Of a DNA stretch of 64,000 nt, positions 9,252 to 21,096 are shown piece after piece. The notes beneath the pieces are model-generated. The model saw only the letters and a program-made list of their open reading frames with translations. It was not told where the DNA came from and ran no database searches. How positions within the stretch are numbered: the first letter of the stretch is position 1; every line of letters begins with the position of its first letter. Origin of the DNA: Fusibacter paucivorans (GTDB lineage: Bacteria; Bacillota; Clostridia; Peptostreptococcales; Acidaminobacteraceae); the NCBI RefSeq assembly GCF_018390735.1, contig NZ_JAHBCL010000013.1:1-64000 (forward strand), written 5' to 3'. Position numbers and translations under genes: made by a program.

Positions 9252-10409
9252 TTATGAACGCGTTGCCATTACGTAGTAGATTCCTGCGATGACAGCGATT
9301 CCCAGCAGCACGAGTAATGCGATTTTTAATGCACTCTTTGGATACTGCCCCTGAACTTCACCTGTTTGACCGTTAATCATAAAATGATAGAGTTTTTCTT
9401 TATAGCGGAAACTGGAAAGCCATACGGGCAGCAGAATATGTTTAAACATTACATCGTTATACTGCGTTTGGATATTGAGAGAACTTACCGTATCACCGCC
9501 GATTTTGCGAATGACGGCCTGCTCAATGTCGGTATCAATAATTTGAACCGCGTCTTGCCAGCCGTCTTCCAGTGAAACACTGTAGCGTTCTGCAAAGAAG
9601 CCGGAGAGAAATGCCGGCTGATATTCAGTTAAAGCATCGAGATGAAAAGGCTGAACTTCGCGAATCAGTTTGTCATCTACTTTATTGGAAGCGCGTACCA
9701 GCACATCATCAAAGAAGTGACTGTAATCGCCGCGGACTGGCGTCCAGCGCGTGTGGCGCTCCTGATAAGTTTCAGTCTTGCCGTTTACCGTACGCGTGCG
9801 CGTTACATAGTAATAATCGCCGCGCAAGGCTGTATAAAAGGCATAGATATTTGTATCATATGTCCAGTGCGGCACATAAGTGCCGAGCAGACGATCGTTG
9901 CGGTAAGTTTCTTTTAAATCTTTTGGTGCCAGCCATCGCTTGCTGATCCACGTGTGAAACCGTTCTCCGGCAGATTTCGAAGTAATGCTGAAAGGCACGA
10001 GATAGTGCGGTGGAATGGTTTGCTCACTAGCTTGTTCAACAATGTGCGATGAACCGCAGTAATTGCAAAACTGTGCCTGTGCATCTGGTGAAACGACAAT
10101 TTCCGCCCCGCAGTTCTTACAGGAAAAGGTTCGGATGTCATCATCATTCCATGTACGAACGCCCTCTGCCAGAGCCGTTTTAAAGCAGTTTTCGATAATT
10201 TCTGTCGTATTGGTTTCAATGGCTTTCGTCGTGCCGCAATATGCACATTTCAGTTCACCTGATTCCGGGTCAAAAGCCATGTTGCCACCACAGGAAGGAC
10301 AAGTGGTTACAATGGTTTGATCCATTTGATCTTCAATGGTATCAACGACGTAATCGTCAGCGGTTTCGTTTAAAGTTTCGTTTAATGTCTCATTTAATGT
10401 CTCTTTCAT
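9252..10409 (-). CDS. YdjG-like zinc-ribbon membrane protein
   Basis: A 385-residue protein with a short ETLN tandem repeat at the N-terminus (four copies of a 12-bp unit), two TFIIB-like zinc ribbons (CPSCGG...CAYCG and CKNCG...CNYCG, about residues 38-110), a middle domain with HTRW and YYYVTRTRTV, and one C-terminal membrane helix (about 362-380). This matches Bacillus YdjG, encoded with the phage-shock protein PspA and the SPFH protein YdjI. It starts 12 nt after the SPFH gene, so the two form an operon; the start has only a weak GGCGGGG site. No pspA or ydjH homologue is next to it. Role inferred: a membrane anchor or partner for the SPFH protein in envelope stress. Confidence 0.75.
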   Translation of the reverse strand: MKETLNETLNETLNETADDYVVDTIEDQMDQTIVTTCPSCGGNMAFDPESGELKCAYCGTTKAIETNTTEIIENCFKTALAEGVRTWNDDDIRTFSCKNCGAEIVVSPDAQAQFCNYCGSSHIVEQASEQTIPPHYLVPFSITSKSAGERFHTWISKRWLAPKDLKETYRNDRLLGTYVPHWTYDTNIYAFYTALRGDYYYVTRTRTVNGKTETYQERHTRWTPVRGDYSHFFDDVLVRASNKVDDKLIREVQPFHLDALTEYQPAFLSGFFAERYSVSLEDGWQDAVQIIDTDIEQAVIRKIGGDTVSSLNIQTQYNDVMFKHILLPVWLSSFRYKEKLYHFMINGQTGEVQGQYPKSALKIALLVLLGIAVIAGIYYVMATRS

Positions 10410-10421
10410 TTTGAACCCCGC

Positions 10422-11567
10422 CTATTCCGTCTTATTGCCGCAGTGCGGGCAGAATTTAGCACCTGCTTCAACGACCTCACCGCAATTGGTACAGTGTTTT
10501 TCCGTTACTTGTGAAGCGCCGCACTCTGTACAAAATTTAGAACCGGATGGCAGTTCTTTGCCGCATTGAATGCATTTGGCCATAAAGCTGTAGCCGCAGT
10601 TCGAACAGAACTTTGAACCTTCGGGAACGGTTGTGTGACAAGTTGGACATGCGATTCCAGATGGCTGAGTGTTTCCCTGATTGGATGGTGCAGACGCTTG
10701 TTGGTCATCTGTCATCATATCTGTCATCATTTTGCCAATGCCCATGCCCGCACCCATGCCTGCGCCCATACCAGCCATGCCGCCGCCTGGATTTTGTGCT
10801 GCATCGCGAATGGCTTCAGCTGTTTGAAACTTCATGTATTGATTTAAATTGCCGAGGGCACCCATTTGTGTGCGCTTGTCAATTGCCTGTTCAACAGACT
10901 CTGGGAGCGACAGGTTTTCAATGGCAAAATCGGTAATGGTCAGACCATAGACGTCAAAGCGGTCATTGATTCTCGCCATGGCCAGACTGCCGATCTCATC
11001 GTATTGTGTGGCTAAATCCATTGCCGGAATTTTTGCTTCGGCAATGACGTCGGTAATGCTGGAAACAATGAGACTTTTAAGGTATTCATTGATTTGATCA
11101 ACGGTAAAAAACTTATTGGAGCCAAAGATTTCTTTTAAGAACTGAACGGCCTCTTTGACGCGAAAAGCATAGACGCCGAAACCGCGAAGTCTGAGCATGC
11201 CAAAATCAGCATCTCGCATCATAATTGGATTAATGGTTCCCCACTTTTGGTTGGTAAACTGTTTCGTGTTAATAAAATAAACATCTGTTTTAAAATGGTT
11301 TTCAAAGAGGTTTTTCCAGTTCGAAAGCGATGTGAAGATGGGCATCGTATCTGTATGTAGTGTGTACTTGCCGGGTTCAAAGACATCGGCAATTTGACCT
11401 TCATAGACAAAAATTGCCACTTGGGAAGGCCTGACGACGAGTTGCGCCCCCTCTTTAATTTGCTGCTTACTGGTCAACGGGAATTTGTAAACCATTGTAT
11501 CTTGTGAATCGTCCTCCCAATGAACGACTTCAATAAATTCACCTTTAAGAAAATTTAAAAGTCCCAT
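10422..11567 (-). CDS. YdjI-like SPFH-domain protein with zinc ribbons
   Basis: A 381-residue soluble SPFH/band-7-like protein of the YdjI ('virion core protein') family: N-terminal MGLLNFLKGEFIEVVHW, VVRPSQVAIFVYEGQ, and a coiled SPFH core to about residue 255. A Gly/Met-rich linker follows (GMGAGMGAGMG), then three zinc ribbons in a row (CPTCH...CSNCG, CIQCG...CTECG, CTNCG...CPHCG). Bacillus YdjI is shorter. AAAGGAG lies 7 nt before the ATG. It heads a two-gene operon with the YdjG-like gene, supporting a joint membrane-associated complex. The molecular activity of this family is not settled. Confidence 0.8.
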   Translation of the reverse strand: MGLLNFLKGEFIEVVHWEDDSQDTMVYKFPLTSKQQIKEGAQLVVRPSQVAIFVYEGQIADVFEPGKYTLHTDTMPIFTSLSNWKNLFENHFKTDVYFINTKQFTNQKWGTINPIMMRDADFGMLRLRGFGVYAFRVKEAVQFLKEIFGSNKFFTVDQINEYLKSLIVSSITDVIAEAKIPAMDLATQYDEIGSLAMARINDRFDVYGLTITDFAIENLSLPESVEQAIDKRTQMGALGNLNQYMKFQTAEAIRDAAQNPGGGMAGMGAGMGAGMGIGKMMTDMMTDDQQASAPSNQGNTQPSGIACPTCHTTVPEGSKFCSNCGYSFMAKCIQCGKELPSGSKFCTECGASQVTEKHCTNCGEVVEAGAKFCPHCGNKTE

Positions 11568-11666: not shown

Positions 11667-11915
11667 TCAACCGCCGCCGCATACGGGGAAAAAACAAACC
11701 TTATCATCCGGTGTGACACTTGTCTGATAACCCTTCATCTTGAGGATGTTAAAGGTATTGATTGTAATCAGGCTTGATTTCGCCTGCTTTTTCGCTTGTT
11801 TGCCATAGGCTTTCTCAATGTGTTGTAACACATCCTGTATCGTTTTTACATCGATGAATTCATCGCTTTTCTGAACCAGATCGCGTAATTCACCGTAATA
11901 GAATATTTGCGCCAT
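11667..11915 (-). CDS. MoaD/ThiS-like sulfur-carrier protein
   Basis: An 82-residue beta-grasp protein ending in CGGG, the flexible Gly-Gly tail that MoaD and ThiS proteins use to carry a thiocarboxylate. MoaD inserts dithiolene sulfur into molybdopterin, the ligand of the tungsten or molybdenum cofactor. It is 69 bp downstream of the AOR gene with the same orientation, and AOR enzymes need a tungsten-bispyranopterin, so a dedicated MoaD for this operon is the likely role. GGAGG precedes the ATG. A ThiS role for thiC upstream is less likely because thiC is a separate unit. Confidence 0.8.
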   Translation of the reverse strand: MAQIFYYGELRDLVQKSDEFIDVKTIQDVLQHIEKAYGKQAKKQAKSSLITINTFNILKMKGYQTSVTPDDKVCFFPVCGGG

Positions 11916-11984
11916 GTGGCCTCCTTCAATGCTGACCGCCTAAGTAAATTATTTATCACGAGCAATACTTATTATGAGCAATGC

Positions 11985-13868
11985 TTATAGCCCGAGTTGA
12001 CGTCTTTTTTGCGGTGTAGGAATACCGTGCGCATCCCATCCCCTGACCCGGTAATAAATGGGAAGCATGGCTTTTAAATTGACGACGGTGGTTTTGTCGT
12101 CTTTATCCTGCGGTTCCATTGTCAAGCGATCCGGCAAACTGTCGTCGGCATCGGTGAGGCCTTCGCGCAGATTGAAAAGGCGTTCGATATTATAGCCGCG
12201 CTCACCGATTTGAAGAAGCTGTCCGACGGTCATGCGCATGCCTGTTGAAAGCTCAATGGCTTTTGCCTGAGGCAAAATGGGCATGGCGTGAATGGGCATA
12301 ATGTCCGGCATCAATTTCCAGACTGGCCTCAGAACAAACCGTGAGGCAATGGCGGCCTTGTTCACAAACTGCGTTATGGGATGTGCAGGCCCTAACCGAT
12401 AGAATATTCCCGGAATGGTCGCCTGCGCAGTAAAAAGACAGAGGCCTGCTGCGGATACGGCTTCCATCATATTTTGAAAGAAAACCGTTAGTTCCGGCTT
12501 GCCCTTTGGCGTCTGACTGTCTACAGCCAGTACGCCGACGGATTCAATGAGTGCAAGGTAGCCGCCGTTGAGATGGCAGCCGCCGCGGTTAGAAGTGGCA
12601 TAACCAAGCCCCATGCCTACGGAACGCCGAGGTTCATATGCGGCGAGTTCCATGCCCTTTGCATGCATGGCAAAAGATTCGCCGCCGTACTTTTCAGAAA
12701 GCCATTTACTGCCCATGCCGAGTTCGGCACAGTTGCCTTTGCCGTGCGCAATTTGACGAATGACGCGAAGCAGGCCGTCTGTATTGCCAAAGGAAAGGCC
12801 AAAATCTGCAATGCCGCGTTCCTGAAGCTCCATGGCAAAGGCGATGGTACCGCCCAGTGAGATAGTGTCGAGTCCCAGAATATCGGCTTCGTAATTGACG
12901 GCGTTAATCCACGAAAGATCCGCATTGTCAATATTGGCGCCAAATAGTCCCACGGTTTCGTATTCCGGCCCTTTTACTTCTTTGTCGTTGACCATGACGC
13001 GCCGCTCGCAGCGGATGGGACAACTGATACAGCCGCTGTTTTTAACGAGCAGTGTTTCCGCCAGCGTTTCACCGCTGATGGCGTCAGCGTGCTCAAAATG
13101 TCCGCGTTTAAAATTATGTGTCGGCAGTGCATTATTGGCATTGGCGATATTGACAAGCCCTGCAGAGCCGTATCGGCCGAGTGTTCTGCCCGTCATAGGA
13201 TGGCTTTTCAGAAAATGAACCCATTGTTTGACATAACGATCAAAAGCGGGCTTATTGTAAATTGGCTGCTTTTTTGTACCGAAGGCGACAAGCGCCTTAA
13301 TGCGCTTCGACCCCATGAGTGCCCCTGCGCCGCCGCGACCGGCTACGCGCTCACCCGAAACGGCACAGGCATAGTGTACGCCGTTTTCACCGGCTGGCCC
13401 TATGACGAGTTTGCCGTACTGTTTGTGAAAATGTGTTTGTACTGCTTCTGTATCCAGTCCCCACAAAGCGGTTGCATCGGTAAAGGTTACTTCGCCGTCG
13501 ACGATAGCAATTGTAACGGGTTTTTCTGAACGACCGGTGATGATGAGCCCGTCGACACCTGCCCTTTTCAGCATGACGCCAAATTGACCGCCGCAGTTTG
13601 AAGACGCAATACCGCCGGTAAGTACGTTTTTAAAGGTCATGTTAAAGCGGCTTGACGAGGGTGCGCCGGTTCCGTTCATCGGGCCCGTATTGACGATGAG
13701 CACGGCATCGGGAGACAACGGATCGAGGCCTGTGGGCAGTAAATCATAGAGCAGCTTTGCACCGAGAATTTTACCGCCGAGATATTGCGAGAACATCGCT
13801 TCATCAATTGGGAAAGGCACCACGCTTTGATCATCTAAATTGATTTTTAAATAATGCGGCAAGTACAT
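11985..13868 (-). CDS. aor: aldehyde:ferredoxin oxidoreductase (tungsten type)
   Basis: AOR-family enzyme, which interconverts aldehydes and carboxylic acids using ferredoxin electrons and a tungstopterin. Seen: N-terminal domain with YLGGKILGAKLLYDLLP and TGPMNGTGAPSSSRF, the ASSNCGG loop, AGRGGAGALMGSK, the [4Fe-4S] ligands CISCPIRC, and GPEYETVGLFG followed by NGGYLAL in the cofactor region. 627 residues matches AOR (about 605-630). The start codon overlaps the stop of the ferredoxin gene by one base (TGATG), so they are translationally coupled. With the alcohol dehydrogenase two genes upstream it makes an acid/aldehyde/alcohol module. The exact substrate cannot be told from sequence. Confidence 0.93.
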   Translation of the reverse strand: MYLPHYLKINLDDQSVVPFPIDEAMFSQYLGGKILGAKLLYDLLPTGLDPLSPDAVLIVNTGPMNGTGAPSSSRFNMTFKNVLTGGIASSNCGGQFGVMLKRAGVDGLIITGRSEKPVTIAIVDGEVTFTDATALWGLDTEAVQTHFHKQYGKLVIGPAGENGVHYACAVSGERVAGRGGAGALMGSKRIKALVAFGTKKQPIYNKPAFDRYVKQWVHFLKSHPMTGRTLGRYGSAGLVNIANANNALPTHNFKRGHFEHADAISGETLAETLLVKNSGCISCPIRCERRVMVNDKEVKGPEYETVGLFGANIDNADLSWINAVNYEADILGLDTISLGGTIAFAMELQERGIADFGLSFGNTDGLLRVIRQIAHGKGNCAELGMGSKWLSEKYGGESFAMHAKGMELAAYEPRRSVGMGLGYATSNRGGCHLNGGYLALIESVGVLAVDSQTPKGKPELTVFFQNMMEAVSAAGLCLFTAQATIPGIFYRLGPAHPITQFVNKAAIASRFVLRPVWKLMPDIMPIHAMPILPQAKAIELSTGMRMTVGQLLQIGERGYNIERLFNLREGLTDADDSLPDRLTMEPQDKDDKTTVVNLKAMLPIYYRVRGWDAHGIPTPQKRRQLGL

Positions 13869-14293
13869 CAGGCATCACCTCCTGCGGTCATGGTAATAAC
13901 ATTGAGCGGACACGCTTCTTCACAGAGCCGGCATCCGACACATTTTGCAGGCATCGCCAATTGTGCATAGACGTTTAAGTCACCTTTAAAAGCAGGCGTT
14001 GAAATGGCAATGCAGTCAAAATGACAAATGTCGACACAAATGCTGCAAGCACTGCAATTTTCAGTTTTAAAAGCAGGTTTTAACCATTCGCGCCTAGGCT
14101 GCTTTATGGCGGTTTTACCGCTGTCATTATGAATGGCGCCAGCCGGACAGACTTTCCCGCAAACACCGCAAGAAACACAGCGCTTTGCATTGATTTGATG
14201 CTGTGCTTTGCGCTCGCCGGTGATGGCCATAACGGGACAGACATTTTGACATGCTGTACAGCCTATGCACTGGTCATCAATTGAAAATGCCAT
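13868..14293 (-). CDS. four-cluster ferredoxin subunit of AOR
   Basis: A 141-residue iron-sulfur protein with four CxxCxxCxxxC motifs, implying four [4Fe-4S] clusters: CIGCTACQNVC, CVSCGVCGKVC, CSACSICVDIC and CVGCRLCEEAC. The third lacks the Pro that usually follows the last Cys. Such polyferredoxin subunits shuttle electrons to and from AOR. Its stop overlaps the aor start by one base and its end carries the GGAGG site for aor; the alcohol dehydrogenase stops 9 nt upstream of it. A clear member of the same operon. Confidence 0.93.
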   Translation of the reverse strand: MAFSIDDQCIGCTACQNVCPVMAITGERKAQHQINAKRCVSCGVCGKVCPAGAIHNDSGKTAIKQPRREWLKPAFKTENCSACSICVDICHFDCIAISTPAFKGDLNVYAQLAMPAKCVGCRLCEEACPLNVITMTAGGDA

Positions 14294-14302
14294 TTTTGCC
14301 TC

Positions 14303-15502
14303 CTATATGCTAATCATCTGATAGAGTTTGAACATGTCTTCTTCTTTAAAGAGCTTTGGCACAGGATACAGCGGATGCGCCTCTGACATGGCGCGTTTTA
14401 CCATTAATGGGATGTCCGATTCGCGAATACCTTCAATGCCCAGTGGAATTTGCATGCGTTTATTCATGTCTTTCACGGCGTCGATAAATTTCACAGCTTT
14501 ATCTTTTTCAGGATCACCAGGTGCAGTGATACCAACGAGATCTGCTAATTCAGAAAGCGGTTTGTAGACGGCATCGCCAAAATAGTCGAGAACGTAAGGG
14601 AGAATAACGGCGTTTGCAAGGCCGTGCGGCGTGCCATAAAAGCCGCCGAGCGTATGTGCGATGGCATGGACGTAGCCGACATAAGCTCTGGTAAAAGCAA
14701 TCCCTGCATAATGAGATGCTTTTAACATTTCCGTTCTCGCTTCGATATTGCTGCCGTTGGCATAAGCCTCATAGAGATTGTCAAAGATGAGCTTAACGGC
14801 TTTTCGGCTGTACAGATGCGTTTCTTTTGTATTGCTTTGGCCGATATAAGCTTCAACAGCATGGGTTAGCGCATCCATGCCAGTGGTGGATGTGATATGC
14901 GGCGGCAGTCCCGTGGTAAGCATTGGATCGAGAATGGCATAATGCGGAATGAGCGCCATGTCATTTAACGGATATTTTTCGTGCGTCTGGCTGTTTGTTA
15001 CAACGGCGGCAATGGTGGTCTCACTTCCCGTCCCGGCAGTTGTCGGAATGGCAAAGAGCGTTGGAATGGTTTTTCGAACTTTAAGAACACCTTTCATCTG
15101 TGGAATACTTTTATTGGGTCTGGCGATTCTGGCGCCAACAGCTTTGGCGCAGTCCATTGATGAACCCCCGCCAAATGCGATGAGTGCAGTACACTGATTG
15201 GCTTTGTACAGCGTCAGCGCTGCTTCGATATTGTCAATGGTTGGATTGGGCACCGTTTTATCATAGACGGCGTAATGAATGCCGGCGTCTTTCAATGCGC
15301 TCAGCAAACCGTTCATCAGTCCCAGTTTAGCGATTCCGGAATCCGTAACGACGAGTATTCGATCAAGCCTCTTGGCTTTAATCACTTCCGGTAATTTTAA
15401 AACGCTGTTTACGCCTTCGATCATTTCTGGCTTGCGCCACGGCAAAAAATTCGACCCAACTCTAAAACCAGCCTGGTAAAGTCTGCAATATGCTGCATTC
15501 AT
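14303..15502 (-). CDS. iron-containing alcohol dehydrogenase
   Basis: Group III (Fe-dependent) NAD(P)H alcohol dehydrogenase, reducing aldehydes to alcohols. Seen: NAD-binding GGGSSMDCAKA and PTTAGTGSE, and metal ligands in TGMDALTHAVEAY and HAIAHTLGGFYGTPHG. 399 residues is normal. It is the first gene of the ADH-ferredoxin-AOR-MoaD operon, which suggests it acts on the aldehyde made by AOR. The start has an AGGAAAGGG-type site. Its promoter region holds six 22-bp direct repeats, so expression is probably regulated. Confidence 0.93.
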   Translation of the reverse strand: MNAAYCRLYQAGFRVGSNFLPWRKPEMIEGVNSVLKLPEVIKAKRLDRILVVTDSGIAKLGLMNGLLSALKDAGIHYAVYDKTVPNPTIDNIEAALTLYKANQCTALIAFGGGSSMDCAKAVGARIARPNKSIPQMKGVLKVRKTIPTLFAIPTTAGTGSETTIAAVVTNSQTHEKYPLNDMALIPHYAILDPMLTTGLPPHITSTTGMDALTHAVEAYIGQSNTKETHLYSRKAVKLIFDNLYEAYANGSNIEARTEMLKASHYAGIAFTRAYVGYVHAIAHTLGGFYGTPHGLANAVILPYVLDYFGDAVYKPLSELADLVGITAPGDPEKDKAVKFIDAVKDMNKRMQIPLGIEGIRESDIPLMVKRAMSEAHPLYPVPKLFKEEDMFKLYQMISI

Positions 15503-17323: not shown

Positions 17324-20300
17324 CTAAGTGTTCTTTTCAATAAACCGCTTTTTCGCACTAGTGATGTCAATGGCGTCAATGACCATGAGGTTGTCGAGTC
17401 CTTCTTTTTCATCGAATATCCGTACGGATTGCATTCTGATGATATAATCGAGGAACTGCTTTGCCAAGAGGCCGTTTTTCAGCAGCATGAATTTATTTTG
17501 CTGCAGCTCTTCCAACGCCTCTTTTAAAATATCACCGGTCTCATTTTCAAAGGCATACCCTCTTACAGCCAATTCGTTTGCAACAAGCGAATAGAGTTCG
17601 GATGGCGTATAGTTTTCAAAGTGAATGTGTACGGGAAAACGGTATGCCAGTGACGGATAGCTGGCGAATAGGTTTTGAACACCATCGGTACTGCAATTCA
17701 GGATAAAATAGGTTCTGGTGCGGTTCTTATCAATAAATTTGATAAAGGCTGACATCATGCTTTGAAATTTATCATACGTTGTCAGTTGGTCGGCATTGTC
17801 GATGAGAATGACGCGGCCGATGCCCTTGGCAAAGGTGTCTTCAAGTGATTGTCCGCGATCCAGATTGACGATAATTTCCTCGAAGTTGAGTTCATATGGG
17901 AATTTTGATTTGGTAAGGCCGAAATTCGTCAACAGTTCGCCAAGCAGGTCAATCATCTTGTGCTTTCCGGTGCCCATTTCGCCTGTAAAGACCAGATTGT
18001 TGTATTTGTTGAGATCGACCGTATAACCGAATCGCTTGCGAAGGTCGTTGATCTTCAAGAGTTTATACATATCATTCAGGTATTGTTTTGATTCAGAATT
18101 GCCTGAGTACGTTTCCAGCATCGCATTAAAGTTATAGTCCTGATTGCGGTCAGAAAAGTTATAGCGTTCAATATCATTGTCTTTGATTAAATTCATTTCA
18201 TGAGCGCTGGCATGTTCTTCGGCGATTCGAATACTCTGAATACGTATAAGGTTTTCTACGTAATTGCGGACAAGCCTGCCGTTGCCCGATTGCATATCGG
18301 CGTTTTCATAGATATCGATGAAATTTTTTGCCATTTCCTGCTCCGCTCTTTCGGAGATTCGAAAGCCCTTTTGCTTGAAGAGATGTTTTGCCATAGCCAA
18401 AAGCTCATCCGGTTTATAATCCTTAAAGGTTGTCCAAAGCGGAAAGCGTGAGCGAAGGCCGATGTTGACATCAAAGAAGGCTTCCATATCTTCTGTATAG
18501 CCGGCTAAGATGACGATGACTTCCTTGGAATAGTCTTCAATGAGTTTTAACAGCGTTTCAATGGCTTCGCGCCCGATCGCATCGTTTGCCAGTGTGTAGG
18601 CTTCATCAATAAAAAGGATGCCGCCGAGCGCTTCTTTAAATTTTTGCTCTGTTTTCTTTGGCGTTTCTCCGGGGATGTCGGATACAAATCCCGAGCGATC
18701 CGTTTCAATTAACTGCCCCTTGCGAAGAAAGCCCATGGTGCGCAGCATCTCAGCGACAAGGCGCGCGATACTCGTTTTGCCCGTTCCGGGATTTCCGGCA
18801 AAGACCATATTGAGGTTTTGTTCGATTTCTGTATGCACGCCGACAGAGCGGCGCTTTTCCTGAGCAATCAGCAGTTTGTACTGAGCGCGTAGGAGGTTTT
18901 TGACGTCATCAAGGCCGATGATATTGGCCAGTCGCGATTCGAGGTCAAAATCGATGCTGAAATTGAAATTAAAATGCTGTTTTGACAGCGTATCCAGCGG
19001 CTGATCGGGATTGTAAAGATAGTTCTTGCGCAGTTCAGCAATGGCGCGGTCGATGACGTTGCGGACGAAACGCGCATTGCCAAGGCCTTTCTTCTCTTTA
19101 ATCTGTGTTTGGTCAAAGAGATCGATCAGTGATTCTCTGACGTTGGGATCAATGCTATAGCCCTGTTGTTTCGCATAGGTTACAGCCATTTCATACATCT
19201 CATTTGGCGTATAGTCGGTGAAGTGTACGCGATTAGGAAAAACATCCGCCAATGCATTTTCCTGCAGCATTTGGAGCATGCCGTCATCTTTGCCGGATAA
19301 GATCATCACAATCTGGCTGCCGTATGCGGCATAGCCATCGCTGAGGGCATTGATAAAGGCTTCGCTTTCTTCCGTGCCGAATATGGAAGCGATTTCATCA
19401 ATAAAGAGAACGCCTCCCCTTGCCTTTTCAAAGAGTGCGGTGAGGTTGTCATTTAGTTTTTCAACATCGCCTGTCATAAAATCTGATTGACTGACGCAGA
19501 CAAAGGTATCCTTTTCTAAAATGGCTAGTGCCAGCAAGTAGTCATACATCAGTTCAGCAGATTCACTTTTGCCGGTGCCGGCATTGCCTGTAAAGACTGT
19601 GTTGAGATTGACGGGAATCGTCTTGAGTCCCATTTGTCTGCGAATGGCCTGAACTTTGTGGTTGTTTTCGATCTGCGTCATGAAGGTTTTAAAAGCCTTT
19701 AATCCCGTATGAGCATGCAGGCGGTATTTCACTTCTGAGAGACTGGCTGTTACATAGGCGCTGAGGTTATAGCGCTCTTCTCTGATGCGGCAGTAAATAT
19801 CATTATTTGTAACATAGAGATAAATGGACTCACCTGGATAATCTACGGTATTCAGAAGTCTTTCGAGTGGGTCACCCAGTTTATAACGCGTATATTCCAT
19901 AAAGGTAAAGTTTTCGCGTTCTTCAAAGCTGGAGATGTATTTGTAAAGCCGTTTGACAGGTGTCTTGCCGCTTTGCGAATCGGTGTTCAGCTGAATCTTT
20001 ACGTGGTGTGCGGCTTCAATGTCCTTGAGTACTTTATTGAGTATGCGTTCCATCATTGCAAGCTTTTCTGCTTTTGTGAGGGCTCTCGTGTACAAGACGG
20101 TATCACGCTGCGGCAGTTCATTTTCTAAAAACTGCGGCAGTGTATCGTTTGGCCGACGATTGTAATTAAAGATATAGAATTTTTTAGGGCAATTGATCAC
20201 TTCTATTTTTTCATCGTCGATAATTTCAGCTGCATTTTTATCAACTTCAACCATAAACATATCCCTAGTGGTGTATGGTTTTTCGAGTTTTATGACACCA

Positions 20301-20824
20301 CCCGGTGTGATCTTCGAAAGAACGGTGTGCATCTGATCAGTTGCAAGTTCGACATTTTTAAAAATGATGCCTTTTGCACCCCCCGCAAATACTTTCATCA
20401 AATCCGTTAAAAAGACATTGAAACCCAAGCTGAAAAGATAGTGTCCCATGTCCATTTCAACCAATTCAAAACGTCCGAGTAGTCCAGAGGCGTCAATATG
20501 GCTAAAGATTGATTTTACACTATTTTTCTTAAATGTATTTGGTTCGCCGACGAGCAGCAGACTGCCAAATTCACCTGCTTGAAGTTTTGAAAGAAAATAT
20601 TGACACAGCGCTTCAAAATAGGATTCCTGTCCGATAAAATCTGTGTTGAGTTCTGTTGAGATCGTTTCGAATAGTGTTCCAATGGCATGTTGTTTATTAT
20701 CATGATTGTTTGCATTATTATGGTTGTTCAAATGATCGCCTTGATGAATAGTTTGATGGTTATTTTGATGGTTATTTTGATGGTTGTCTTTATGATGATC
20801 TTGGTTGTTTTTCTGATTAATCAT
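17324..20824 (-). CDS. four-module AAA+ ATPase (CbbX/SpoVK-like)
   Basis: About 1166 residues (numbering below is from the ATG 22 codons upstream at 20890). After a His/Asn-rich tail (24-68) come four AAA+ modules. Module 1 (about 82-300) is ClpA/B-like but lacks usable Walker motifs (GEPNTFKKNS at 115; GIIFKN). Module 2 has GNAGTGKS (435) and VLFIDE (494). Module 3 has GNPGTGKT (699), ILFIDE (758) and GLRSRF (811). Module 4 is damaged (GEMGTGKH at 970, VILIDN at 1027). So two intact CbbX-type ATPases are flanked by two pseudo-ATPases. The start at 20824 is chosen because GGAG lies 6 nt before it, whereas 20890 has no site. CbbX relatives remodel protein complexes; the client here is unknown. 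Confidence 0.9.
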   Translation of the reverse strand: MINQKNNQDHHKDNHQNNHQNNHQTIHQGDHLNNHNNANNHDNKQHAIGTLFETISTELNTDFIGQESYFEALCQYFLSKLQAGEFGSLLLVGEPNTFKKNSVKSIFSHIDASGLLGRFELVEMDMGHYLFSLGFNVFLTDLMKVFAGGAKGIIFKNVELATDQMHTVLSKITPGGVIKLEKPYTTRDMFMVEVDKNAAEIIDDEKIEVINCPKKFYIFNYNRRPNDTLPQFLENELPQRDTVLYTRALTKAEKLAMMERILNKVLKDIEAAHHVKIQLNTDSQSGKTPVKRLYKYISSFEERENFTFMEYTRYKLGDPLERLLNTVDYPGESIYLYVTNNDIYCRIREERYNLSAYVTASLSEVKYRLHAHTGLKAFKTFMTQIENNHKVQAIRRQMGLKTIPVNLNTVFTGNAGTGKSESAELMYDYLLALAILEKDTFVCVSQSDFMTGDVEKLNDNLTALFEKARGGVLFIDEIASIFGTEESEAFINALSDGYAAYGSQIVMILSGKDDGMLQMLQENALADVFPNRVHFTDYTPNEMYEMAVTYAKQQGYSIDPNVRESLIDLFDQTQIKEKKGLGNARFVRNVIDRAIAELRKNYLYNPDQPLDTLSKQHFNFNFSIDFDLESRLANIIGLDDVKNLLRAQYKLLIAQEKRRSVGVHTEIEQNLNMVFAGNPGTGKTSIARLVAEMLRTMGFLRKGQLIETDRSGFVSDIPGETPKKTEQKFKEALGGILFIDEAYTLANDAIGREAIETLLKLIEDYSKEVIVILAGYTEDMEAFFDVNIGLRSRFPLWTTFKDYKPDELLAMAKHLFKQKGFRISERAEQEMAKNFIDIYENADMQSGNGRLVRNYVENLIRIQSIRIAEEHASAHEMNLIKDNDIERYNFSDRNQDYNFNAMLETYSGNSESKQYLNDMYKLLKINDLRKRFGYTVDLNKYNNLVFTGEMGTGKHKMIDLLGELLTNFGLTKSKFPYELNFEEIIVNLDRGQSLEDTFAKGIGRVILIDNADQLTTYDKFQSMMSAFIKFIDKNRTRTYFILNCSTDGVQNLFASYPSLAYRFPVHIHFENYTPSELYSLVANELAVRGYAFENETGDILKEALEELQQNKFMLLKNGLLAKQFLDYIIRMQSVRIFDEKEGLDNLMVIDAIDITSAKKRFIEKNT

Positions 20825-21063
20825 GTACATCTCCAATAGTATTTTCGTTTTGTAGACTGCATTTTGGGTAATTTCTACAGTTTGCTGCATCGTTTATATT
20901 GAAGTAATTACCCATTAATTATACCCCTGTCATTGTATCATCAAACACGGATGCGAGAAAGTAAAGGTTCTATTAAATTGATTGTCGCCTGCCATGACTG
21001 TAAATAATTTTGTTTATAATTGATGAAGTGCTAGAAAAAATCTGTAGATGTGCTCAAAGGATT

Positions 21064-21096
21064 AAAAAATCCTCTGACCGTAGAGGAACAGAGGAT
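21064..21096 (-). terminator. second mtnK terminator
   Basis: Stem ATCCTCTG / CAGAGGAT (21069-21096) followed by T6 on the minus strand. It lies directly behind the first mtnK terminator. The rest of 20825-21216 holds only the AAA+ leader region and no gene. Confidence 0.8.

Follow-up and report, generated by a model that had tools for sequence, protein, structure and literature searches.

A Fusibacter paucivorans AAA+ protein predicted to join a degenerate HSP100-type module to three CbbX-type modules

What might a single polypeptide do when it carries four AAA+ modules in a row, the two in the middle apparently able to hydrolyse ATP and the two at the ends apparently not, and how might such modules meet one another? 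The question is raised by a minus-strand gene at 17324–20824 in the first 64,000 nucleotides of Fusibacter paucivorans contig NZ_JAHBCL010000013.1 (assembly GCF_018390735.1), a stretch that we refer to as a whole as the window. Comparison of the encoded protein with its relatives establishes, at the level of sequence, one module of the HSP100/Clp D2 type followed by three of the CbbX/SpoVK type, a loss of hydrolysis residues in modules 1 and 4 that is conserved among the relatives, an intact site in module 3, and the absence of the pore aromatic from modules 2 and 3. From these features we infer, with less assurance, how the modules may form a ring, which arginine finger may serve which ATP site and what type of target may be handled.

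Make-up of the four modules

The longest version of the open reading frame (ORF) occupies 17324–20890, starting at 20890, and its translation of 1188 residues supplies the residue numbering used throughout. The ATG at 20824 is the likelier start because GGAG lies six bases upstream of it; translation from there would give a protein of 1166 residues, with which the coordinates proposed in the initial annotation are correct. That annotation also quoted GEPNTFKKNS and GIIFKN, GNAGTGKS and FIDE, GNPGTGKT and FIDE, and GEMGTGKH and LIDN as the Walker A and Walker B segments of modules 1 to 4 respectively, and all of these are present in the translation. Motifs were tallied over 20 aligned loci of what we call family A, the window included; a further sequence, from G001, is 98 % identical, is cut by a contig end and was left out of this alignment. 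The bounds of the CbbX-type modules are hidden Markov model boundaries converted to the ORF numbering, and those of module 1 are approximate.

Module 3 (18167–18952, residues 647–908) has Walker A GNPGTGKT (18773–18796) and Walker B LFIDE (18602–18616), both intact in 20 of 20 loci, as well as an intact sensor 1, sensor 2 and arginine finger, R815 in SRFP (18446–18448); the finger position is Arg in 16 loci, Lys in three and lost in G547. Module 2 (19022–19738, residues 385–623) has GNAGTGKS (19565–19588) and LFIDE (19394–19408), the former intact in every locus and the Walker B Glu kept in 19, the exception being G020; its finger is found in 17 loci and is lost in the window (LADVFP), G017 and G020. 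Module 4 (17360–18139, residues 918–1177) retains GxxGTGK in 18 of the 20 loci. The Thr/Ser of Walker A and the Glu of Walker B, which the initial annotation had described as lost from the window's copy (GEMGTGKH, 17960–17983; LIDN, 17795–17806), are absent from all 20: the first column holds Lys in 15, His in two, Asn in two and Gln in one, and the second Lys in 12, Arg in six and Asn in two. The finger of module 4, R1084 in YRFP (17639–17641), is Arg in 16 loci and is lost only in genus g302, in the same four rows in which the module 3 finger is changed; among the 13 non-redundant rows outside that genus it is one of 36 invariant columns of 259. The proposed layout of two hydrolysis-deficient modules flanking two Walker-intact ones on one chain is thus borne out and conserved in most relatives, although it is not invariable, since in G020 module 2 has also lost its Walker B Glu and only module 3 looks live.

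An aromatic residue at the column of the SpoVK pore-loop Tyr, which from work on CbbX we take to be the pore aromatic, is absent from modules 2 and 3 in all 20 loci and from module 4 in 16; modules 2 and 3 do have a Phe four positions ahead of this column. Mean pairwise identity is 0.68 and 0.72 in modules 2 and 3, against 0.41 and 0.43 in modules 1 and 4.

Profile matches indicate that modules 2 to 4 are of the CbbX/SpoVK type. The whole protein matches TIGR02881 at 1.6e-125 and CbbX (3zuh) at 5.9e-42, and when scanned apart modules 2, 3 and 4 score 31.4, 67.6 and 21.7 bits with PF00004, module 4 barely passing the cut-off of 21.2 bits. The cut-offs for SpoVK proper, a stand-alone protein of spore formers (TIGR02881, 417.4 bits summed over three stretches against 422.95), for EccA of type VII secretion (TIGR03922, 322.4 against 466.65) and for the rubisco activase CbbX (TIGR02880, 301.5 against 459.25; rubisco was not looked for) are not reached. 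A GY signature in sensor 1 and a sensor-2 arginine mark the SpoVK/CbbX/EccA clade (PMC10659427). Module 3 has both, as ILAGY and GNGR; in the window's protein, module 2 replaces GY by GK and keeps GNAR, and module 4 has neither.

Module 1 (19739–20659, approximately residues 78–384) is of another lineage, and the initial view of four modules of one kind does not stand. The window's copy alone gives no Pfam AAA match even at an E-value of 10. We aligned 28 rows, comprising 17 from family A, nine from a sister family B and two of a type C (both described below), and read their motifs by eye; outside this alignment are B_G121 and the family A rows G477, G517 and G513, in which module 1 is short or missing. 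The resulting profile matches ClpC 3pxi at 5.1e-20 among solved structures, and 47 of its 48 top matches have HSP100-type names (the other is 8xon), followed weakly by ClpX and ORC4, within the best 60 of 121 matches at E-values up to 10. In single scans with an E-value limit of 10, Pfam ClpB_D2-small is matched by eight of the 28 rows, at best with 1.2e-7. When module 1 was aligned locally by hhalign to the D2 domains that four Clp proteins of the same genome carry, the match was 99.7 % across 300 columns, and 99.2 % across 275 when repeated; SpoVK-type profiles align over only 22–23 columns, at the overlapping end, and ClpX gives 7 %. AAA+ lineages do cross-match: a control profile of CbbX module 2 attains 97.7 % over 245 columns against that D2 profile, a lower score than the one obtained by module 1. 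Taken together, the alignments and profile searches point to an AAA+ module nearest to the HSP100/Clp D2 lineage, with a D2-small-like part.

In the window the Walker remnants of module 1 are GEPNTFKK (20525–20548, residues 115–122) and IIFKN (20354–20368, residues 175–179). None of the 28 rows, whether from family A or from its sister families, has the Walker B Glu (four have an E at the preceding position), only two keep the Walker A Thr/Ser, and no D2 arginine finger is seen by eye. Since module 1 is inactive even where the remaining modules of a relative are live, it is best read as an old pseudo-ATPase. No D1 or N-domain of HSP100 is seen in the protein.

AlphaFold2 was run on the full-length protein with an alignment of the window and viral-contig rows. 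Predicted local distance difference test (pLDDT) values over blocks of ten residues are mostly 75–94 for modules 2 to 4 (64–92 in module 4), and the model of module 3 overlays on CbbX 3syk with a Z-score of 26.3 and a root mean square deviation (rmsd) of 4.5 over 276 residues. The pLDDT of module 1 is below 50 over most of residues 32–380, because few module 1 relatives are in that alignment. The check by structure modelling that was suggested with the initial annotation yields good models of modules 2 to 4, but no reliable arrangement of them, the predicted template modelling score (pTM) being 0.37 for the full-length protein and 0.40 for modules 2 to 4 alone.

Relatives, sister families and module history

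Searches covered 41 relatives, 41 genomes of the family, 391 of the class, 297 of the order and 398 of the phylum. Homologues with the same module order, and with the Walker changes of modules 1 and 4 conserved, were found in three families (f1, f3 and f51) and eleven genera; counting the window's genome, there are at least 19 carriers among the 297 genomes of the order sample, at least four among the 391 of the class and at least two among the 398 of the phylum, these being lower bounds, as the class, order and phylum searches scored two candidates per genome. Since relatives in eleven genera share the pattern, the four-module protein is, judged by its sequences, a real protein family. Module 1 is short or missing in three of its rows, in G513 at a contig end and in G477 and G517 (L121/L126), where a TAG falls in frame within the stretch for module 1.

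The sister family B has a homologous module 1 followed in the same order by two to four live CbbX modules, and occurs alongside family A in G420, G477 and G513. All 29 CbbX modules of its ten proteins are intact at both Walker motifs, at both sensors and at the finger, and the SpoVK pore-loop Tyr is present in 28 of the 29. In the two chains of type C (C_G435 and C_G010) module 1 is joined to a single CbbX module, and both of these modules keep the same five features. The number of CbbX modules per chain bearing module 1 is one in two chains, two in two, three in 25 and four in one (n=30; the window is not among them, and the way in which the chains were gathered enriches the count for family A). 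The statement in the initial annotation that CbbX/SpoVK/EccA proteins have one module each is contradicted by family B, and a tandem SpoVK-family ATPase is also described in the literature (PMC11090510).

We note that in six of the seven family B loci examined, out of ten (L084–L089), a protein of about 130–160 residues with a hydrophobic start and one of about 200–230 residues are encoded downstream; in the two loci that were scanned neither has a Pfam match over the cut-off. L089 carries a DUF4236 gene too, with a 54 % relative in L087. The type C gene of G010 adjoins a gene with a weak, below-cut-off match to the XpaC-type Halogen_Hydrol family, and in G015 a similar gene adjoins one that was judged by eye to be TelA-like (L082:503–3898 and L008). 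Further long proteins of clostridia, each with two to four CbbX modules and with module 1 undetected, are present in L071, L072 and L073, that of L072 being 1278 residues long with four modules.

In a tree of 88 modules, which includes 14 of the 20 family A proteins, modules 2, 3 and 4 of family A each form their own group with support of 98–100, and from this we take it that the positions in the chain have kept separate roles. Module 2 of family A joins module 2 of families B and C with support of 99, and module 4 lies beside module 3 with support of 94; the corresponding values are 99.9 and 90.6 in a reduced tree of 76 modules, from which long or odd rows (A_G547, A_G020, B_G121, S_L049 and viral) had been removed. 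An approximately unbiased (AU) test on the same 76 modules disfavours a clade of module 4 with the last module of family B (p 0.014), this group having been named after the tree was seen and being one in which long branches meet. As for relatives with intact Walker motifs, the evidence that the initial annotation saw as telling against its layout, none has an intact module 1 in the 28 rows, whereas an intact last module does exist, in the sister family, where it does not group with module 4. Our reading of this history is that a unit of module 1 plus CbbX probably came first and acquired further CbbX modules later, and that the last module of family A, perhaps a copy of module 3, then lost catalysis.

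Arrangement of the modules and its alternatives

Our tentative preference, which could well prove wrong, is for an ATP-driven remodeller that does not thread its substrate, with three CbbX-type modules and a dead D2-type module in each chain and a six-module CbbX ring built from two chains. The two chains would pair so that two times three CbbX modules form a six-membered ring, live-live-dead twice over, and each ATP site would receive its arginine finger from the module that follows in the same chain. In rings whose modules lie side by side one module's finger completes its neighbour's site (PMC4047620). A dead module 4 with a kept finger beside a live module 3 fits such a ring, and module 4 may have been retained partly as finger donor to module 3, whereas a homotypic stack has no need of this finger. 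ATP turnover by module 3, joined in most relatives by module 2, would move the inert modules 1 and 4, which may serve as scaffold and as a platform for substrate or partner, and the assembly would pull or twist a dedicated target with no threading of polypeptide through the pore.

Two lines of evidence lead us to favour a two-chain, non-threading ring with one target. One, two and three CbbX modules per chain all divide six, which suggests rings of six made from six, three or two chains, and narrow chaperone work on a dedicated target is the view of the SpoVK/CbbX/EccA clade given in the literature (PMC10659427). The pattern of fingers adds modest support for modules meeting side by side, modest because about one module 4 column in seven is invariant anyway and because genus g302 breaks the pattern. 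The fullest form of the proposal, a genetically fixed asymmetric ring, live-live-dead twice, that is capped by an inert HSP100-type tier and acts as a dedicated non-threading remodeller, is unlikely to hold in every part.

Several observations weigh against the two-chain ring. The modelled arrangement is unreliable at both pTM values. Genus g302 (G581, G541, G604 and G547) has altered or missing fingers in modules 3 and 4, yet the Walker A and Walker B motifs of modules 2 and 3 look intact, and every finger-pairing scheme that we tried fails to explain this genus. The module 2 finger is kept in 17 of 20 loci, though the site that it would complete, were two chains to form the ring, belongs to the dead module 4 of the other chain. 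In the window's clade the module 2 that has no finger has itself drifted, which a homotypic ring explains equally well. The family B chain of G403 has four live CbbX modules, and four does not divide six; the count of modules over the 30 chains also leans towards family A through its sampling. Lastly, modules 2 and 3 might still grip substrate, given the Phe that precedes the missing aromatic by four positions.

Tandem AAA+ modules of one chain often stack, as in p97, and six chains might here form one ring per module type, as tiers like those of p97 or ClpB, with the inert tiers of modules 1 and 4 around two live ones. Such a stack would account for the drift of module 2 together with its own finger in the window's clade and for the like behaviour of module 3 in G547, and hexamers were assumed for the SpoVK-family tandem ATPase by its authors (PMC11090510). 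It would leave the module 4 finger without a use, since a dead tier needs none, yet the Arg is kept in 16 of 20 loci; furthermore, among the matches listed in the structure overlay (chains over 3,000 residues left out), those to p97, Cdc48 and NSF that span modules 3 and 4 have rmsd values of at least 10.4 Å, the modelled arrangement being itself unreliable. We regard stacked tiers as doubtful.

The same side-by-side logic of the fingers, and the conserved dead positions at both ends, would also suit the proposal of the initial annotation that one chain alone makes a partial or pseudo-symmetric ring of four modules, with modules 1 and 4 as built-in regulatory subunits. Dynein offers a precedent, for its single chain bears six modules, of which AAA5 and AAA6 have no nucleotide sites and AAA4 has its site in the AAA4/AAA5 cleft (PMC4047620). 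Module 1, however, comes from another AAA+ lineage and is also attached to the single CbbX module of C_G435 and C_G010, chains that could not make such a ring alone, and we therefore consider a single-chain ring rather doubtful, bordering on unlikely.

A sporulation-specific stand-in for SpoVK is very improbable, even though spoIVA, present in 135 of the 297 order-sample genomes, is found in 17 of 20 carriers and in all 15 family f3 carriers of that sample. None of the order-sample carriers has a TIGR02881 match with E <1e-115, the level of stand-alone SpoVK proteins, an exclusion that may merely be phylogeny, as all 29 genomes with a stand-alone SpoVK belong to families f2 and f11. No spoIVA match was obtained in the window's genome, in G017, in G020 (68 % complete) or in G001, and 39 of the 54 spoIVA-positive f3 genomes of the order sample are without the gene, so that it is not strictly tied to spore formation. 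Decay of the gene through disuse is hardly credible. In its favour are the in-frame TAG of two of the 20 loci (G477 and G517) and the rapid divergence of modules 1 and 4; against it stand the strong conservation of module 3, an ORF that, to the extent that contigs cover it, is uninterrupted in the window and in 17 of the 19 other loci of the alignment, and the uniform kind of the replacements (K/R/N for the Glu, and K in 15 of 20 loci for the Thr/Ser).

Surroundings, known systems and meaning

The N terminus carries an Asn/His/Gln-rich extension (20681–20824, minus strand) that is not seen in five aligned relatives; at 20741–20785 a 12-base tandem repeat of 3.8 copies encodes its Asn/His-rich stretch, which is possibly a metal-binding tail. 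On the same strand, a gene for an APH-like kinase lies upstream, while the downstream side holds a PCC-domain gene and a TetR gene. Ahead of the four-module gene, at 21087–21070, is a terminator-like site, one of seven in the region as compared with 4.4 (sd 2.0) in shuffles. Elsewhere in the window a single run of aldehyde ferredoxin oxidoreductase, ferredoxin and Fe-alcohol dehydrogenase genes (11667–15502) adjoins a gene for a small protein ending in GGG, and at 9252–11567 the gene for an SPFH/Band 7 protein with zinc ribbons lies next to one whose product weakly matches a zinc ribbon and has a hydrophobic stretch at its C-terminal side.

No neighbour is shared near the gene among six of the 20 family A loci, compared by all-against-all blastp of ORFs of at least 90 residues; one similar ORF pair (45 %) lies about 12 kb from the gene in the window and elsewhere in L093. 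AAA_lid_6 is matched in the window's genome by this gene only, and no CbbX-type companion was found there by that profile. A link to defence was considered and rejected, the matches being weak P-loop ones only: IteA/IetA NF042959 gives 30.4 bits against a cut-off of 510, and the best PADLOC IetA match is 7.1e-8 over residues 675–797.

Multi-module, partly dead AAA+ proteins are already known, and Rea1/midasin has several AAA+ modules on one chain, some of them catalytically dead. Dynein too has several modules per chain, some dead, with active sites at module-module clefts (PMC4047620). Dynein and Rea1/midasin differ from the present protein in being eukaryotic, in having six modules and in belonging to another AAA+ clade, so that only the logic is alike. 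With the SpoVK/CbbX/EccA clade the protein shares the end-to-end alignment of modules 2 to 4 and, in module 3, the catalytic motifs and the sensor-1 GY; it differs in having three such modules per chain, one of them dead, in the loss of the pore aromatic and in the fusion to an inactive HSP100 D2-type module. To the D2 of HSP100/Clp proteins (ClpB, ClpC and Hsp104) module 1 is matched over both the large and the small part, but with the Thr/Ser in 2/28 and the Glu in 0/28 rows, and with no D1 or N-domain alongside. Family B has the same order and homologous modules 1 and 2, and is set apart by its intact CbbX modules, its two small downstream genes in six of seven loci and a last module that does not group with module 4. 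The tandem SpoVK-family ATPase of Type III-A CoCoNuT loci, in which only the C-terminal ATPase domain keeps Walker A/B, is likewise a dead-plus-live chain, compared here by its published description only; it has two ATPase domains, C-terminal leucine-rich repeat and biotin-carrier-like domains, and a TerY/restriction context (PMC11090510). Neither the fusion of an HSP100 D2-type module with CbbX modules nor the dead last module has a match in the literature searched, most subscription journals being outside its scope.

AAA+ rings have mostly been studied as assemblies of identical subunits, with the firing order inferred from mixed mutants. Here the pattern of live and dead sites appears to be fixed on one chain, and there are related chains in which all CbbX sites, from one to four, are live; the order of the ring, the pairing of fingers and the use of dead sites would thus be directly testable. 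If the two-chain ring that we tentatively prefer is true, it would be a natural bacterial counterpart, asymmetric in its construction, of dynein's specialised ring, and the sister families, with one, two or three live CbbX modules per chain, would show symmetric versions of it.

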